DNA from: an uncultured Oscillospiraceae bacterium
GTDB lineage: Bacteria > Bacillota > Clostridia > Oscillospirales > Oscillospiraceae
DNA: 21,908 nt
Direction of reading: 5' to 3'
NCBI GenBank assembly: GCA_934565775.1
Contig: CAKTIN010000028.1
Location: 1-21,908, forward strand
In this document: in pieces, positions 8,433-21,908 of the stretch
Position numbering within the stretch: position 1 is the first letter of the stretch
How the letters are laid out: the number at the start of each line of letters is the position of its first letter
Notes under the pieces: generated by a model
The model's database searches: none
The model's input: only the letters and a program-made list of their open reading frames with translations
What the model was told of the DNA's origin: nothing
Translations under genes and position numbers: made by a program

Positions 8433-8461
8433 AGGCAGAGCCTCCTCCTTGAGATGCCAAT

Positions 8462-8490
8462 AGTGTATCACGCCCGGGCGGGAATGTCAA
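8462..8490 (-). promoter_or_regulatory. Proximal lspA promoter (copy 1)
   Basis: TTGACA (8490-8485) and TACACT (8467-8462) with a 17-base spacer. Transcription would start about 25 bases before the lspA ATG, just upstream of its ribosome-binding site. Confidence 0.75.
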
Positions 8491-8497
8491 AGCAAAT

Positions 8498-8526
8498 AGT
8501 GTATCACGCCCGGGCGGGAATGTCAA
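8498..8526 (-). promoter_or_regulatory. Distal lspA promoter (copy 2)
   Basis: This is an identical promoter (TTGACA at 8526-8521, TACACT at 8503-8498) displaced by exactly 36 bp by the tandem duplication. Confidence 0.7.
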
Positions 8527-8535
8527 AGCAAAATG

Positions 8536-13516: not shown

Positions 13517-13530
13517 GTATTGGTTAACTA

Positions 13531-13951
13531 AATCAAAAGCGCCCTGCCGGTGGCAGGGCGCCTCTTTACCCATGGGAGGGAAAAGCTCTCGATTTGCTTA
13601 CTTCAGCGCCTCTTCGACTGCAACAGCGACGGAGACAGTAGCGCCGACCATGGAGAGCAGCGCCCGCGCTGCGGATCAAATCAAAAGCGCCCTGCCGGTG
13701 GCAGGGCGCCTCTTTACCCATGGGAGGGAAAAGCTCTCGATTTGCTTACTTCAGCGCCTCTTCGACTGCAACAGCGACGGAGACAGTAGCGCCGACCATG
13801 GAGAGCAGCGCTTGCGCTGCGGATCAAATCAAAAGCGCCCTGCCGGTGGCAGGGCGCCTCTTTACCCATGGGAGGGAAAAACTTTCGATTTGCTTACTTC
13901 AGCGCCTCTTCGACTGCAACAGCGACGGAGACAGTAGCACCGACCATGGGA
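13531..13951. repeat. 148-bp tandem array: tail of the GGGtGRT gene plus its terminator, almost three copies
   Basis: Copies start at 13531, 13679 and 13827, a period of exactly 148 bp. Each contains, read on the minus strand, the last 17 or so codons of the GGGtGRT gene, its stop codon and a GCGCCCTGCC hairpin followed by TTTTGATTT. Copies 1 and 2 are cut off after the gene sequence ending CGACCATGG and are followed by a 24-base linker with the palindrome GCAGCGC/GCGCTGC. Copy 3 instead continues into the gene and the left attachment site. Copy 3 differs from the others at a few positions. Confidence 0.9.
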
Positions 13952-13986
13952 TTGTTGCCCATGCCCAGGAAGCCCATCATTTCCAC
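13894..13986 (-). pseudogene. Displaced 3' end of the GGGtGRT gene (host remnant)
   Basis: Thirty codons and a stop encode VEMMGFLGMGNNPMVGATVS followed by VAVAVEEALK. This is the same C-terminus as the gene at the right edge except for one Lys. No start codon or upstream coding part is present. Outside the 37-bp identical core it differs from the right copy at nine bases, all third codon positions, so it comes from a diverged lineage. I read it as the original chromosomal gene end cut away by the insertion. Confidence 0.85.
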
Positions 13987-13988
13987 GT
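13952..13988. repeat. Left attachment site (attL) core, 37 bp
   Basis: These 37 bases are identical to 21691-21727 in direct orientation and lie within coding sequence for GFLGMGNNP. Similarity falls sharply on both sides: synonymous changes to the left, unrelated sequence to the right from 13989. Confidence 0.88.
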
Positions 13989-15412: not shown

Positions 15413-15420
15413 TTTTGAAT

Positions 15421-15462
15421 CACACTATTAACATTGGAAAATACCATATTTTCCAATGTTAA
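15421..15462. repeat. Palindrome upstream of the 15495-16142 gene
   Basis: TTAACATTGGAAAATA (15428-15443) pairs perfectly with 15447-15462 around a 3-base centre. The left arm is extended by CACACTA at 15421. No T-run follows on either strand, so a protein-binding site is more likely than a terminator. The motif recurs at 16152-16204. Confidence 0.85.
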
Positions 15463-16142: not shown

Positions 16143-16151
16143 ATTTGAACC

Positions 16152-16204
16152 ACACTGTTAACATTGGAAATAGAAAAGAATTATATCCAGTGTTAATAGT
16201 GTGA
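16152..16204. repeat. Imperfect 22-bp inverted repeat downstream of the 15495-16142 gene
   Basis: The arm at 16152-16173 and the reverse complement of 16183-16204 agree at 19 of 22 positions. Both carry the motif CACACTRTTAACAYTGGA, also present at 15421-15438. No T-run is nearby. Confidence 0.82.
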
Positions 16205-17753: not shown

Positions 17754-18341
17754 ATGAAAAGAGGATATTCCAGATGCTCCACCAATGAAACCAAGCAGGA
17801 CATTGGCAGACAGGTACGGGAACTGAAAGCCGCTGGCGCAGAGATTGTCTACATGGAGTACGAACACGGAGACGCCAAGGTGAAAAGCCAGCAGGCGCAG
17901 ATGTTCGCAGACGCCGAGGCAGGCGACACCATTCTTGTGTTGGAGGTTCCCAGATTGGCCAGAAGCACCCAGCAGCTTTGTGAGATCATCGAGATTATCC
18001 GAGAAAAGCGTCTGCGGCTGGTGATTCTGGGCAGTATCACGCTGGACTGTCGGGAGGGCAAGGCAGACCCCATGAGCGAGGCGTTTCTGCAAATGGCAGG
18101 CGTGTTCAGCCAATTGGAGCTTGCCATGATACGAAGCCGTGTGCGCTCTGGTATGGCGAACGCCAAAGCCAAGGGAAAGCGAATCGGCAGGCCGCAGGTG
18201 GGCAAGGAGGACATTCCCGCAAATTTCCTGAGGCACTATCCTGCATTCAAAAACGGAACGCTGAATGTTTCGGAATTGGCAAGGGTTTGCGATTTGAGCA
18301 GGACGACGGTTTATAAATACCTTTCGCTTTTGGAGGGGTAA
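17754..18341 (+). CDS. Serine recombinase (resolvase/invertase family), 195 aa
   Basis: The catalytic domain starts GYSRCSTNETKQD, with nucleophile Ser9 and Arg7 at their family places. It continues with TILVLEVPRLARSTQQL (the Arg70-Ser71 motif) and QLELAMIRSRVRSGMANAKA, the long E-helix with the conserved Arg residues. The C-terminus (GTLNVSELARVCDLSRTTVYKYL) is the helix-turn-helix that reads the site. Length is that of a small resolvase, not of a large integrase. ATG at 17754 is chosen because GGAAGGAGGG precedes it. It could resolve dimers of the element, invert DNA or act as a regulator; no recombination site next to it is obvious. It is probably transcribed with the 17417 gene and ends at a strong terminator. 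Confidence 0.93.
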   Translation: MKRGYSRCSTNETKQDIGRQVRELKAAGAEIVYMEYEHGDAKVKSQQAQMFADAEAGDTILVLEVPRLARSTQQLCEIIEIIREKRLRLVILGSITLDCREGKADPMSEAFLQMAGVFSQLELAMIRSRVRSGMANAKAKGKRIGRPQVGKEDIPANFLRHYPAFKNGTLNVSELARVCDLSRTTVYKYLSLLEG

Positions 18342-18342
18342 C

Positions 18343-18374
18343 GGAAAAGGGTGCCGATTGCGGCACCCTTTTCC
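18343..18374. terminator. 14-bp bidirectional terminator
   Basis: GGAAAAGGGTGCCG (18343-18356) pairs perfectly with 18361-18374 around ATTG. It lies between the resolvase gene and the convergent 18377 gene. Confidence 0.9.
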
Positions 18375-18376
18375 TG

Positions 18377-18577
18377 CTATTTTCGGTCAATCACTTTTTT
18401 GCCCTCTGGCAAAATACGATAGAGCCGTTTTCCATTGTTCCAAGTAACTTCAATCATCCTATTTTCTAGGCAGAAGTCAATAACGCCAGCAGCCGCTTTC
18501 CTGTCAATTGCGTCTGCGGAATATGTATCACTGCCAAAGAAGAAAGAATGCAGAAATTCCGTGCTGCGCTGAATCAT
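18377..18577 (-). CDS. Small hypothetical protein, 66 aa, downstream of the PH-like/SHOCT gene
   Basis: I do not recognise it. The product starts MIQRSTEFLHSFFFG and its second half (AAGVIDFCLENRMIEVTWNN, then RLYRILPEGKKVI) looks like the last helix and the wing of a small winged-helix domain. The ATG is 3 bases after the stop codon of the gene upstream, with only a weak GGGA site, so it depends on coupled translation. It is flanked by a strong terminator. The close coupling suggests that it works with the PH-like/SHOCT protein. Confidence 0.65.
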   Translation of the reverse strand: MIQRSTEFLHSFFFGSDTYSADAIDRKAAAGVIDFCLENRMIEVTWNNGKRLYRILPEGKKVIDRK

Positions 18578-18580
18578 ATT

Positions 18581-19186
18581 TTACAATCCCAGCAACTGCT
18601 TTTTCTTCGCATCAAATTCTTCTTGAGAGATAACGCCGCTGTCGAGCAAATCTTTATACTTTTTCAGTTCATCGGCATTGCTCTGGGGAATTTCCGGCTT
18701 AATTGTTGCTTGTGCGATTGGCTGCTTTGAATCCTGCCGTTCAATAAGAAGTTTACTGATTGCCTTGTACAGTTCGTCACGATTGCTAAGCATCCCAAAT
18801 TTAATTGCGCCGGAGGCGGATGTTATCGTTATGCTATGAAACACACCACTTCCAACCGCAGATACAGAATCCAGCGGCAAATCAACCCGCTTTCCGAACG
18901 CTGCCGTTCCAAATACTCTTTTGTTAGTGATTGTCAATTCAACTCTGGAATATACCATTGGGAAAATCGCTGCAACAGCAATAAAAGCAATACCTATCGG
19001 CCACAAAAATGTGTGAAGGTCACTGCAATGTATTACATTGTACATGAGCGATTTGTTGCGATAACCGGGATCAATCATTTGGTCAATGAATGGTATTAAA
19101 ACGCACACCATACCGACGAGTCCAATTACATAATAGAATAGGGTAAATCGTTGTTTTTCGCCTTTGATAATGATTTTTTCTTCCAT
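18581..19186 (-). CDS. Membrane protein with PH-like domain and C-terminal SHOCT domain, 201 aa
   Basis: Two membrane segments (about 15-33 and 62-79) are followed by a beta-rich stretch, residues 82-150, with the bacterial PH-like pattern (RVELTITNKRVFGTAAFGKR, LPLDSVSAVGSG). The C-terminus (172-201) is a SHOCT domain: DELKKYKDLLDSGVISQEEF, then DAKKKQLLGL. SHOCT is a short helical module often found at the end of bacterial membrane proteins, probably for binding partners or oligomer formation. ATG at 19186 is chosen because GGAGG lies 7 bases upstream; an ATG at 19192 is too close to it. No promoter is seen directly before it. The nearest is at 19397-19425, and the RNA between ends in a terminator next to the ribosome-binding site. 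Expression should therefore need readthrough. Confidence 0.85.
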   Translation of the reverse strand: MEEKIIIKGEKQRFTLFYYVIGLVGMVCVLIPFIDQMIDPGYRNKSLMYNVIHCSDLHTFLWPIGIAFIAVAAIFPMVYSRVELTITNKRVFGTAAFGKRVDLPLDSVSAVGSGVFHSITITSASGAIKFGMLSNRDELYKAISKLLIERQDSKQPIAQATIKPEIPQSNADELKKYKDLLDSGVISQEEFDAKKKQLLGL

Positions 19187-19200
19187 AGCCATTCCTCCAT

Positions 19201-19234
19201 AAAATAAAAAGTGCGCCTACCGAAGTAGACGCAC
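19201..19234 (-). terminator. UUCG-capped terminator just before the PH-like/SHOCT gene
   Basis: On the minus strand GTGCGTCTAC (19234-19225) pairs with GTAGGCGCAC (19220-19211), ten pairs including one G-U, around TTCG. TTTTTATTTT follows at once, and GGAGG begins 2 bases later. Confidence 0.93.
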
Positions 19235-19390
19235 AAAAAACGCAAACTCCGATAGTCGCCAAACTAACTGATATAGCAAGAGCCTTGCCTATACACAGCA
19301 GAATTTGCATTTTTATCAAATTCAATGCGTATAGGCAAAAAGAGTAGACTATCCCCATAGGCTCCATCTTATCTATTCAGTTAGTTTGGC
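19201..19390 (-). ncRNA. Structured RNA with likely pseudoknot, candidate cis-regulatory element
   Basis: The predicted start is 19390, the first base of stem P1: GCCAAACTAACTGA (19390-19377) with TCAGTTAGTTTGGC (19271-19258), extendable by four pairs past one bulged base. Inside is P2, TTGCCTATAC (19338-19329) with GTATAGGCAA (19294-19285), and P3, GAATTTG (19323-19317) with CAAATTC (19307-19301). GATAGTC (19353-19347), between P1 and P2, can pair with GACTATC (19257-19251), which directly follows P1, forming a pseudoknot. The terminator at 19234-19201 ends the RNA. GTCTAC (19349-19344), overlapping the pseudoknot strand, can instead pair with GTAGGC (19220-19215) in the terminator, a possible antiterminator. 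I match it to no known riboswitch or small RNA class. Confidence 0.7.
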
Positions 19391-19396
19391 ACGGTT

Positions 19397-19425
19397 ATCA
19401 TACCACATCCGCCTGCAAATATCAA
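19397..19425 (-). promoter_or_regulatory. Promoter of the structured RNA
   Basis: On the minus strand TTGATA (19425-19420) and TATGAT (19402-19397) have a 17-base spacer. Seven bases beyond the -10 box is 19390, the first base of stem P1. Confidence 0.78.
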
Positions 19426-19504
19426 CGGCTAAGATTTGAAACTTACACTTTTTTCTTCGCTTTTGGTGTGATACAATAGAGAAAAACTTCTGCGGGGTGC
19501 GGGT

Positions 19505-20515
19505 ATGGCAAATTACGGGAAATACTACATTGCCGAACGGCTTCTGATTCTGAAGCAGTATCTGGAAGCCAATGCTGGCAAGAACAGAATTGTCACCCGT
19601 GGAGAGCTGGAAGGACTTCTGAGGGAACACGGTATCAATGTTGAGAAGAAAACTCTCTATGCGGATTTCGCCGCTTTGGGGGACATCTGCGGCTTACAGC
19701 TGGAATACGACGTTCACAAGAAGGGCTATCGGCTCCTGAACCCACCCTTTGAGCCTTACGAGTTGCGACTTCTGGTGGACAGCGTGCAGTCCTCCAAGTT
19801 CATCACCCAAGAGAAAGCAAAGGAGATCACCGCCAAGGTCAAGCGATTTGCGGGCAAGGACACCGTGGAGAGCCTGAGCCGTGAAAACCACGTTGCCAAC
19901 CGTATCAGGAGCATGAACGAAAGCGTGGTGAAGGATGCCGACCGCATCCACGAGGCCATCCGCAAGGACCTGAAAATTGGATTCCGTTACTTTCACTACA
20001 CCCCCGCCACGGGAAAGGAAAAGACCTATTCCAAGGACGGTCAGCAGCTGATCGTCAGCCCCTATGCCCTTCTTTGGAACAACGGCAACTATTATCTCTA
20101 CGCCTACGACGGGAAGAAATTCCGCTATTACCGTGTGGACCGCATGGAGCGCATCAGCCAGCCGCTGGCGATTTCAAGAGACGGGAAAGCCCTTTACCGT
20201 GAAAAGGACGTTACCGTCCAAAAGGCAAAGGTTTTCGATATGTACGGCGGGCAGGCATACAACGTACGAATGCGCTTCCGCAACGAGTTGGCGGACGCCG
20301 TGGTGGACCAGTTCGGCAAGGACATGATGATGATTCCCGACGATGCCGACCATTTCATCATCACTGCCCCCGTAGAGATCAGCCCCACCTTCTTTGCGTG
20401 GGTTGCGACGTTTGGCAGACGGGTGAAGATACTATCCCCAGAGCCTGTCGTTGCAAAAATGCGGGAATTTCTGCAAAAATCCTTGGATATGTATCAAAAT
20501 GATGGAGAGGCGTGA
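19505..20515 (+). CDS. WYL-domain transcriptional regulator, 336 aa
   Basis: The N-terminal 75 residues form a winged helix (RIVTRGELEGLLREHGINVE, then KKTLYADFAALGDICGL). The WYL domain follows at about 155-240 with FRYFHYTP, the variant core NGNYYLYAYDGKKFRYYRVD and Arg210/Arg213. A C-terminal extension (about 245-330) ends with VKILSPEPVVAKMREFLQKS. WYL proteins bind nucleic acids or nucleotides and often regulate mobile elements and defence genes. The start is ATG at 19505 with a GC-rich, weak site (GGGGTGCGGG). A TACAAT box lies at 19472-19477 without a good -35 box. It is divergent from the structured RNA and adjacent to the integrase gene, so control of either is plausible but not shown. 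Confidence 0.92.
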   Translation: MANYGKYYIAERLLILKQYLEANAGKNRIVTRGELEGLLREHGINVEKKTLYADFAALGDICGLQLEYDVHKKGYRLLNPPFEPYELRLLVDSVQSSKFITQEKAKEITAKVKRFAGKDTVESLSRENHVANRIRSMNESVVKDADRIHEAIRKDLKIGFRYFHYTPATGKEKTYSKDGQQLIVSPYALLWNNGNYYLYAYDGKKFRYYRVDRMERISQPLAISRDGKALYREKDVTVQKAKVFDMYGGQAYNVRMRFRNELADAVVDQFGKDMMMIPDDADHFIITAPVEISPTFFAWVATFGRRVKILSPEPVVAKMREFLQKSLDMYQNDGEA

Positions 20516-20562: not shown

Positions 20563-21498
20563 CTAGGCTTTCATGCGAACCCGCTCCTGCTTCAGACTTC
20601 GGATAATGTTCACCTTGTCCACGTCCTCTTTCAAGTCGCTGGTCAGAATATTCAGATAGTTTTCCGTGATTGCCAAGCTGCTATGACCTAGTATCTTTTG
20701 GAGTGTCACCACGGAGCCGCCCATGGTTGCCCATTTCTTTGCGAAGGTATGCCGAAAACGGTGAACGCCAGTCTGTTCCAGCCCTCTTTCGTGGCAATAG
20801 TCCCAGATGGCATGGTAGCAGCTGCTTCTTGTGAGCTGTTTTCCGTACACCGAGCAGAAAAGCCAATCGTCAGCCACGCCGCCACGATACTGCAAATATT
20901 CCTGTAAAATCTTCACAATATCCTCATTCAGAGGGATAATCAGAGGCTTTCGGTTCTTTGTCGTATTGACATAGACCACACCGTTGTCAAAATCCACGTC
21001 TCTGATTTTGATGTTGACCAAGCTGTTCTGCCGAACGCCAGTAGAAAGCAGGAAATTCACAATCACCCAGCTTCGGTAGGTGGAAAAGATGCACTTGCGG
21101 ACGTCGGGCTTTTTCAGGAGCTTCCGCAGTTCTTCGTCCGTGTAGGTCTGAATGGGCACTTTGTCTGCTTTTGGAAGGGGAATCTCAAAGTGTGGGACAT
21201 ACCCACATTTCATAAAAAAGCGCATCAGGGTTTTCAGGTCTCTGGCATACGTCCCCATGGAAACTTCATTCAAATTCGGGTCATCACGCAAAGCAATGTA
21301 GAACTTCTGCATGGTCTGCTGATTCAAAGAGGAAATCGGCGTATTGGGTGGAATCCTCTTGTAAATCTGTTTGACGGATTCCTGATAATGGTGGATGGTT
21401 CCGTCCCGTAAATTCCTTGCCTTGCAGTCCAGAATATATTCTTGGAATCCGTCGCTGAACGTCTTTTCTCTTGGGAAGCACATCCTCATTTTCTTCAT
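20563..21498 (-). CDS. int: Tyrosine recombinase (integrase) of the element, 311 aa
   Basis: This enzyme inserts and excises the element. Residues 10-105 form the SAM-like core-binding domain (FQEYILDCKARNLRDGTIHH). The catalytic domain holds all the active residues: Arg156 (STGVRQNSL), Lys181 (TTKNRKPL), His246 and Arg249 (HRFRHTFA), His272 (LGHSS) and nucleophile Tyr281 (ENYLN). There is no separate N-terminal arm-binding domain beyond about 10 residues, so it is of the short XerC-like type. ATG at 21498 is chosen over longer frames because AGGGGTG precedes it and the upstream codons overlap the terminator hairpin at 21527-21568. It lies next to the right attachment site and reads away from it, as is usual. 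No excisionase is recognised; the 51-, 63- or 66-aa proteins are possible candidates by size only. Confidence 0.95.
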   Translation of the reverse strand: MKKMRMCFPREKTFSDGFQEYILDCKARNLRDGTIHHYQESVKQIYKRIPPNTPISSLNQQTMQKFYIALRDDPNLNEVSMGTYARDLKTLMRFFMKCGYVPHFEIPLPKADKVPIQTYTDEELRKLLKKPDVRKCIFSTYRSWVIVNFLLSTGVRQNSLVNIKIRDVDFDNGVVYVNTTKNRKPLIIPLNEDIVKILQEYLQYRGGVADDWLFCSVYGKQLTRSSCYHAIWDYCHERGLEQTGVHRFRHTFAKKWATMGGSVVTLQKILGHSSLAITENYLNILTSDLKEDVDKVNIIRSLKQERVRMKA

Positions 21499-21515
21499 CA
21501 AAAACACCCCTAAAA

Positions 21516-21568
21516 CAGCAAAAACAGGAAGCACATCTTGCCGGATTTCTTCGGCAGGACGTGCTTCC
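21516..21568 (-). terminator. Element-borne terminator between the GGGtGRT gene and the integrase gene
   Basis: On the minus strand a stem of about 17 bp (outer arms GGAAGCAC at 21527-21534 and GTGCTTCC at 21561-21568, one mismatch and one G-U pair) is followed by TGTTTTTGCTGTTTT. It stops transcription from the host gene before the integrase gene. Confidence 0.85.
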
Positions 21569-21629: not shown

Positions 21630-21908
21630 TTACTTCTTCAGCGCTTCCTCAACTGCAACAGCCACGGAAACGGTGGCGCCGACCATGGGGTTGTTGCCCA
21701 TGCCCAGGAAGCCCATCATTTCCACGTGTGCGGGCACGGAGGAGGAACCGGCGAACTGGGCGTCGGAGTGCATCCGGCCCATGGTATCGGTCATGCCATA
21801 GGAGGCGGGACCGGCAGCCATGTTATCGGGGTGCAGGGTACGGCCCGTGCCGCCGCCGGAGGCCACGGAGAAGTACTTCTTGCCCTGCTCCACGCACTCC
21901 TTCTTGTA
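21630..21908 (-). CDS. GGGtGRT family protein, C-terminal 92 codons (partial)
   Basis: The gene enters from the right edge; only the end is present. The sequence contains GGGTGRTLHPDN, which gives the family its informal name in clostridial genomes, then MTDTMGRMHSDAQFAGSSS and VPAHVEMMGFLGMGNNP, and ends VAVEEALKK. The function of the family is, to my knowledge, not settled, so I give none. The codons from 21727 down are supplied by the mobile element after recombination in the 37-bp core, and the product differs from the displaced host end only by one extra Lys. The gene is therefore probably still functional. My family name rests on memory of this motif. Confidence 0.72.
   Translation of the reverse strand, partial: YKKECVEQGKKYFSVASGGGTGRTLHPDNMAAGPASYGMTDTMGRMHSDAQFAGSSSVPAHVEMMGFLGMGNNPMVGATVSVAVAVEEALKK
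21691..21727. repeat. Right attachment site (attR) core, 37 bp
   Basis: Identical to 13952-13988, in the same orientation, inside the coding sequence of the GGGtGRT gene. The crossover lies somewhere in these 37 bases. Confidence 0.88.

Follow-up and report, generated by a model that had tools for sequence, protein, structure and literature searches.

The window, that is, the whole 21,908-nt stretch of DNA that was analysed, carries on its minus strand a sigma-70-type promoter, a folded RNA ending in an intrinsic terminator and, directly behind the terminator, the gene of a 203-aa protein with a C-terminal SHOCT domain. A sequence-only reading of this region had placed the transcription start at the first base of a 14-bp closing stem, with nested stems inside it and a UUCG-capped terminator whose T-run touches the ribosome-binding site of the gene. 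These elements were all recovered: the spacing of the -10 box fits a start at that base, the closing and nested stems are found in the fold of the window sequence, and GGAGG and the start codon come directly after the terminator. The "PH-like" label given to the downstream protein was dropped, as Pfam gives SHOCT alone at E <= 0.001. Relatives of the protein suggest a start codon at 19186 (MEEK...).

The predicted fold of the 192-nt RNA lies 7.5 sd below dinucleotide shuffles, and 0 of 200 shuffles were as low. The promoter scan returned four promoter-like sites versus 2.9 in shuffles; we call the promoter of the RNA because its position is conserved in the family, not because of the scan itself. 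That no other promoter serves the gene, as had been claimed, agrees with the scan of 18300-19700, where the scan places the two other promoter matches on the minus strand at 18645, inside the SHOCT gene, and at 18480, after it. The elements of the locus are listed below.

19425-19397, minus: sigma-70-type promoter, TTGATA-17-TATGAT, with TG before the -10 (promoter scan; conserved position)
19390-19201, minus: folded RNA, 192 nt folded (secondary-structure prediction)
19390-19377 with 19271-19258, minus: closing stem P1, 14 bp (window fold; covariation)
19390-19377, minus: 5' strand of P1, its first base the predicted transcription start (spacing; fold)
19271-19258, minus: 3' strand of P1 (covariation)
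19376-19373 with 19276-19273, minus: nested helix, 4 bp (predicted on the window sequence)
19365-19279, minus: P2/P3 domain (predicted on the window sequence)
19365-19359 with 19285-19279, minus: nested helix in the P2/P3 domain (predicted on the window sequence)
19356-19341, minus: small 4-bp hairpin in the P2/P3 domain (window prediction)
19337-19326 with 19297-19286, minus: nested helix in the P2/P3 domain (predicted on the window sequence)
19323-19317 with 19307-19301, minus: apical hairpin in the P2/P3 domain (window prediction)
19314-19299, minus: P3 strand, AAAAAUGCAAAUUCUG, the 5' strand of the conserved pseudoknot, its A-run nearly invariant (covariation; conservation)
19257-19235, minus: switch strand X, the linker between P1 and the terminator (covariation)
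19314-19299 with 19251-19236, minus: conserved pseudoknot, 16 bp, P3 strand with X (covariation)
19255-19246 with 19226-19217, minus: conserved antiterminator, 10 bp, X with part of the terminator (covariation)
19226-19217, minus: 3' strand of the antiterminator, made up of the end of the terminator 5' stem, the loop and the start of the 3' stem
19234-19211, minus: intrinsic terminator, 10-bp stem, UUCG loop (terminator scan; covariation)
19210-19201, minus: T-run of the terminator
about 19198-19194, minus: GGAGG ribosome-binding site, directly after the T-run
18581..19192, minus: downstream gene, 203-aa protein with C-terminal SHOCT domain (ORF; Pfam)

The GC part of the pseudoknot helix at 19251-19236 abuts a U5 tract, and the two together could act as a pause or weak terminator ahead of the main one.

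The integrase island

The RNA and its SHOCT gene sit on an island of roughly 7.7 kb with a tyrosine integrase (20563-21534), a WYL regulator and a resolvase. The earlier suggestion of a mobile-element RNA is thus borne out for the window copy; the family as a whole is broader than SHOCT genes. Further features of the island and of the rest of the window are as follows.

13897-13988 and 21636-21727: 92-nt direct repeats, 90% identical, at the island ends
13530-13949: 148-nt tandem repeat, 2.8 copies, every copy carrying the same gene end plus a hairpin, by the left end of the island
15414-15440 and 16144-16170: 27-nt direct repeat, 93% identical, in the island, just upstream of or between ORFs
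18343-18374, plus: strong 14-bp terminator-like hairpin, between the resolvase gene and a 66-aa ORF
18377-18577, minus: 66-aa ORF without a Pfam match
8459-8532: 36-nt unit repeated 2.1 times at 100% identity

The 92-nt repeat corresponds to a gene's 3' end, ...NPMVGATVSVAVAVEEALKK, possibly of the family named GGGtGRT, and because the repeats coincide with a gene 3' end they look like an integration site in the end of a gene. The 148-nt tandem copies are possibly scars of earlier integrations, and the 27-nt repeat is possibly an operator. By eye, a similar "...NNPMVG..." gene end was seen near the SHOCT match in L133 (4858-5029) and L099 (5707 region), which suggests a recurrent integration site at this gene end in two other genomes.

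A family of related RNAs in gut Clostridia

Relatives of the SHOCT protein were fetched as 80 loci from viral contigs and as the best 80 of 282 from genome contigs. A descriptor scan found the layout of the window in 31 places, of which five, unlike the rest, were dropped by eye and 26, the window included, were kept as a first alignment. The model built from these 26 copies, R1, has 176 positions, and its only base pairs are those of P1 and the terminator. The R1 scan of loci took in 100 sources (the window, L001, the 80 genome-contig loci and 18 of the 80 viral loci) and gave matches with E <= 2.2e-6 in 34 of the genome-contig loci, 24 of which had served to build the model. In 32 of these 34 loci the RNA precedes the SHOCT match and shares its strand; in L125 it follows the match, and in L089 it is on the opposite strand.

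The first six whole genomes scanned with R1 had 5 to 13 matches each among those listed. From the order to which G001 belongs, 51 of 147 genomes had matches, with up to 15 listed matches per genome, and from its class 78 of 291 did, G001 itself being counted in both although it was found through SHOCT. The per-genome counts in the order, class and phylum surveys come from 9-18 scored candidates per genome and may include weak antisense shadows of the palindromic stem. Among 249 genomes drawn from the phylum, in a manner not given, G001 itself was the only one with a match, and set against the class count this makes the RNA family seem lineage-restricted. The genomes behind named contigs had R1 matches in 8 of 20 cases, labelled Ruminococcus (2), Ruminococcaceae, Eubacterium, Oscillospiraceae (L149) and Clostridia (3). 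Five Lachnospiraceae, two Oscillibacter and one each of Roseburia, Tyzzerella, Erysipelotrichaceae, Eubacteriales and Oscillospiraceae (L140) among the same 20 had none. The named sequences are nearly all MAGs. For the window, the two named ObgE relatives within the top 120 point to an uncultured Oscillospiraceae/Ruminococcaceae bacterium as host.

Plasmids and phages were both considered as main carriers and set aside: plasmid searches gave no match, and searches of phages turned up two faecal records without annotation, MT835503.1 and MT835845.1, the second of which looks bacterial rather than phage, given its lipoprotein genes. Exact-pattern scans of viral contigs returned 0 hits.

The search against all Rfam models that had been proposed along with the original description was run, and cmscan with Rfam 15 found no match in the window above the gathering cut-off; the scan of 20 homologous loci found five tRNA genes and nothing else. 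Under permissive settings, the region 19100-19600 gave sub-threshold matches to DUF805b (12.5 of 35.6 bits, E 1.2, opposite strand), shuA_thermo (21.1 of 58, E 1.5) and trpB (20.3 of 59, E 2.4), and three more at E 3-9. A literature search found no paper joining SHOCT with a riboswitch or the SHOCT domain with an RNA motif, and the words "SHOCT", "Ruminococc" and "Oscillo" are absent from the main text of the 50-genomes paper (PMC11109978). On this evidence the folded RNA belongs to a large RNA family of uncultured gut Clostridia, whose members are likely switches and which has apparently not been described before. If confirmed, it would be an abundant RNA attenuator family of these bacteria that the Rfam 15 models missed in the 21 sequences scanned.

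Covariation and competing helices

The main alignment comprises 110 copies, and the hold-out 35 copies that were not used for R1, plus the window. Both took in part of the fetched loci, so that places from the genome surveys were aligned only if fetched as loci, and both left out loci repeating a place already included (e.g., L162-L164, L174, L175, L178, L185, L202, L212, L224, L273, L274, L276, L279 and L280). Scores were compared with those of shuffled controls, which leave in the relatedness that inflates covariation scores.

P1 and the terminator together have 95.3% of cells paired, two-sided changes at 22 of 24 pairs and a score of 0.549 versus 0.179 in shuffles across the 110 sequences, although these counts lean towards the structure because the alignments are anchored by R1, which contains both helices; the hold-out gave 94.6% and 0.466 versus 0.182. 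P1 alone has two-sided changes at 13 of 14 pairs, with 95.0% of cells paired.

Between P1 and the terminator lies strand X, which takes part in two further conserved and mutually exclusive helices. The pseudoknot between X and the P3 strand, which is outside the base pairs of R1, is 86.9% paired in the 110 sequences, with two-sided changes at 11 of 16 pairs and a score of 0.297 versus 0.218 in shuffles; sliding it by one to three columns lowers the score to 0.043-0.106. The hold-out values are 89.4% paired and 0.211 versus 0.170. The antiterminator between X and the terminator is 83.5% paired, with two-sided changes at 9 of 10 pairs and a score of 0.270 versus 0.184 in shuffles, falling to 0.027-0.093 when slid by one to three columns. 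In the hold-out it is 88.6% paired and scores 0.195 versus 0.130, with two-sided changes at just 3 of 10 pairs, a number reached by 33 of 500 shuffles. The count of further pair types in the hold-out was reached by 112 of 500 shuffles for the pseudoknot and by 307 of 500 for the antiterminator.

The covariance check on homologues thus agreed with the sequence-only reading for the closing stem and the terminator, and found little covariation for the pseudoknot and the inner stems that it had proposed. Its pseudoknot, GATAGTC (19353-19347) with GACTATC (19257-19251), does exist as a complement in the window but is not conserved across the family: 46.5% of cells are paired in the 110 sequences, and the score of 0.132, against 0.118 in shuffles, was reached by 39 of 500 shuffles and became 0.100 when the pairing was slid by -1. 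The 35 further copies plus the window gave 52.7% paired and 0.135 versus 0.101, with 7 of 500 shuffles reaching the score and 0.121 when slid by -1. The 6-bp alternative pairing seen between this region and the terminator is real, and its full extent is the conserved 10-bp antiterminator. P2 and P3 vary widely in length and form across copies, and the consensus fold of 26 long-type copies retains the apical hairpin and two pairs of the small hairpin only, with little covariation, so that the inner helices of P2 and P3 are weakly supported. Nearly every position with a conservation of 80% or more belongs to P1, the pseudoknot, the antiterminator, the terminator or the apical hairpin, the exceptions being single bases such as 19348 and 19315.

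Predicted energies match this picture of one strand with two partners. With its own partner versus that of another row, X pairs at a median of -17.5 versus -13.2 kcal/mol in the pseudoknot and -17.3 versus -12.6 kcal/mol in the antiterminator. Median energies in 109 copies (109 of the 110 rows were usable for upstream and energy statistics) are -16.5 kcal/mol for the terminator, -16.1 for the antiterminator and -17.5 for the pseudoknot duplex. For 79 of 109 copies the gap between terminator and antiterminator is no larger than 3 kcal/mol, and in 51 copies the balance favours the antiterminator. Freeing the P3 strand has a median cost of 7.7, leaving -9.9 before the loop penalty. Since X resembles the local partner of P3 (GAGUUUG versus GAAUUUG in the window), P3 can swap partners, and the similar energies of the three helices suggest a poised attenuator.

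We consider the RNA to be, probably, a conditional transcription attenuator coupled to its own promoter, in which pairing of X with P3 would turn the gene off and pairing of X with the terminator would turn it on. Transcription would start at the first base of P1; P1 would close, and X would then emerge with a choice of two partners. Should X settle on the A-rich P3 strand, forming the pseudoknot, the terminator would be left free, transcription would stop and a folded RNA of about 190 nt would remain. Should P3 be kept occupied, X would instead take the 5' half and loop of the terminator, no terminator would form and polymerase would enter the gene. The signal would then act on P3, and it would more likely be a protein or an RNA than a metabolite, because almost no nucleotide is conserved outside the helices. 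Three-way strand competition at similar energies is unusually clear here and makes switching directly testable.

Downstream genes and rival explanations

The promoter and the RNA behave as one unit, as judged by the fixed spacing of the -10 and P1 in comparison with random places. Under a lenient rule and within a 22-nt search range, a -10-like box precedes P1 in 109 of 109 copies and lies exactly 6 nt before it in 81, the same rule giving 1920 of 5000 random places in range and 91 at the exact distance. The motif TGnTAnnnT stands before P1 in 98 of the 109. On the other side of the RNA, an ORF of at least 35 codons preceded by a Shine-Dalgarno (SD) sequence begins no more than 150 nt beyond the terminator in 91 of 108 copies (no more than 60 nt in 74), at a median of 19 nt, compared with 23 of 94 other terminators of the same loci (9 within 60 nt) and 156 of 957 random places (55). 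Two of the 110 copies were left out of this count, having less than 200 nt downstream, and one of the 91 ORFs (L221:1951) runs through the next RNA. Linkage holds in the loci from genome searches (63 of 75; 54 within 60 nt), in the SHOCT-seeded loci with the window and L001 (28 of 33; 20 within 60 nt) and in the hold-out (27 of 35; 15 within 60 nt).

The downstream protein set holds 90 of the 91 products, one of two overlapping L221 frames being left out; 28 come from SHOCT-seeded loci, the window and L001, and 62 from genome-search loci (L162 and up). Pfam matches among the 90 cover 55 families, among them SHOCT (18), Zn_Ribbon_1 (6), LRR_5 (4), AMP-binding (3), SLH (2), HTH_17 (2) and an EcoRI-type methylase (1). 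Matches among the 62 genome-search proteins cover 48 families, with Zn_Ribbon_1 (6), LRR_5 (4), AMP-binding (3), SLH (2) and single matches to LiaF, CHAP, M23 and others. SHOCT was considered as the defining partner and given up: the first sample was SHOCT-seeded, and among the 62 proteins SHOCT is absent from the 25 of 48 families listed, so that at most one member of the 62 has it. A C-terminal SHOCT pattern, which finds 15 in the 90 proteins where Pfam finds 18, occurs in none of the 62. As raw counts by simple rules, a membrane segment or signal is present in 53 of the 90 proteins (36 of the 62) and a lipobox in 15.

Close copies of the RNA stand before different genes. The RNAs of L143, L182 and L188 are 94-96% identical, with terminator stems that differ yet still pair, and their flanks, 300 nt downstream and 250 nt ahead of the promoter, align no better than chance (47-53%). 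Two of these loci, L182 and L188, come from G001 and have stretches of 141 nt (93.6%) and 114 nt (86.8%) in common farther upstream, differently spaced, which allows for a longer duplication with later change and speaks against the simple movement of one unit. An FtsH-type gene (Pfam M41, AAA), the promoter and the RNA (99%) are common to L144 and L165/L269; the similarity breaks off some 9 nt past the RNA and picks up again near a transposase gene of IS200-like type (Y1_Tnp). Between the RNA and Y1_Tnp, L144 has a SHOCT protein and L269 unrelated sequence, in which a 131-aa ORF shows neither a Pfam match nor a clear SD start. A MITE-like test found most copies diverged; a few pairs that precede different genes reach 94-99% identity. 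Complete units also occur in tandem, three in L221 (1752-2314) and four in L222 (1879-3641), with pairs in L186/L224, L223, L251, G329 and G445. Each unit in L221 and L222 has its own promoter-like sequence, RNA and terminator, the upstream units have no convincing gene directly after them, and the 300-nt stretches after two L222 units are 99% identical.

One tentative reading of these comparisons, which we think rather doubtful, is that promoter, RNA and terminator form a shared "socket" in which the RNA is fixed or copied while the cargo behind it is swapped, so that one signal or trans-acting RNA would rule the accessory genes of the clade, with surface, mobile-element and defence-like genes as the cargo. 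Its odds are lowered by the further upstream segments shared by two near-identical copies, which may reflect a longer duplication. The attenuator family, if confirmed, would offer a case of a regulatory RNA seemingly more stable in the genome than the gene behind it.

The attenuator reading takes up the earlier proposal of an RNA switch or attenuator of an unnamed class, which gains support from the blank Rfam result, the mutually exclusive conserved helices, the adjacency of terminator and ribosome-binding site and the gene linkage. An intrinsic terminator lies between promoter and gene, and the conserved antiterminator is exclusive with it. Against attenuation stand the fixed distance between promoter and P1, which simple cis-attenuation does not need, the 17 of 108 copies (8 of 35 in the hold-out) without an SD-preceded ORF within 150 nt, the low share of hold-out copies (15 of 35) whose ORF begins within 60 nt, and the seven upstream array units that keep all three helices, which the simple model does not explain. 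The main rival is an independent family of stable small RNAs with its own promoter and terminator and a 5' end protected in P1, which would act in trans and reach the gene by leakage or capture. The fixed promoter spacing and the several copies in many genomes favour it, and it accounts for tandem units without a gene between them at least as well as attenuation does. We nevertheless regard it as unlikely, if far from negligible, given that an SD sequence and ORF follow the terminator so much more often than they follow control terminators, and that the conserved antiterminator pairing would be needless for a plain small RNA. The two could be partly true side by side, since termination yields a discrete RNA under either reading.

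A strict riboswitch for a metabolite or second messenger, in which the P1-P3 domain would be the aptamer, would share the terminator/antiterminator platform and the pseudoknot, and would fit the presence of several copies in one genome in front of diverse accessory and surface genes, but the confinement of conserved positions almost entirely to helices and the variable length and form of P2/P3 make it quite improbable. We rate as highly unlikely a DNA-level recombination site, a folded attC-like hairpin at which genes are inserted. It would explain near-identical units before different genes, the tandem arrays and the resumption of similarity after one ORF in L144 versus L165/L269; however, the promoter, the U-tracts and the abundant G-U pairs (UG is the commonest type at pseudoknot column 144, in 54 sequences) point to RNA, and an unsystematic look at the far end of the exchanged stretch noticed no matching site. 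Ribosome-mediated attenuation through a leader peptide was rejected as scarcely credible: the window leader does contain an AUG and a 94-aa frame running through it, but an SD sequence with a start codon inside P1-P1 occurs in 28 of 110 copies only, no leader ORF is conserved and a helix from the 5' end leaves scant room for one.

Transcription-terminating riboswitches and protein-controlled attenuators work by letting a strand choose between an upstream partner and the terminator stem, with the terminator just before the ribosome-binding site. The RNA family resembles them in both the choice of strand and the place of the terminator, and differs from them in having no Rfam match, a fixed promoter with its start at P1, unrelated genes behind it and no conserved aptamer-like core that we could find. 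T-box leaders also choose between terminator and antiterminator in Gram-positive bacteria; unlike them, the present RNAs have no Rfam T-box match, and the downstream Pfam families listed are not amino-acid genes. In type III toxin-antitoxin systems a terminator separates the RNA from the toxin gene. The present RNA is likewise a folded RNA beside a protein gene, as is the prophage RNA of AbiF/RCd22, which is reported to neutralise and down-regulate its neighbour (PMC12373285). Unlike these, it has no Rfam match, and its downstream proteins are diverse rather than one toxin family, as the spread of Pfam families in both protein sets indicates. Tandem riboswitches (PMC9481103) stand in series of more than one copy before a gene; in L221 and L222, by comparison, each copy has its own promoter-like sequence and terminator. 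If the attenuator is confirmed, many poorly known surface and mobile-element genes would be joined in one regulon.

As a minor observation, 11 of 101 copies have a tRNA gene in the 400 nt before the RNA (seven with both on one strand), and none of 108 has one in the 400 nt after it; the loci of the main alignment contain 23 tRNAs in 515 kb overall.
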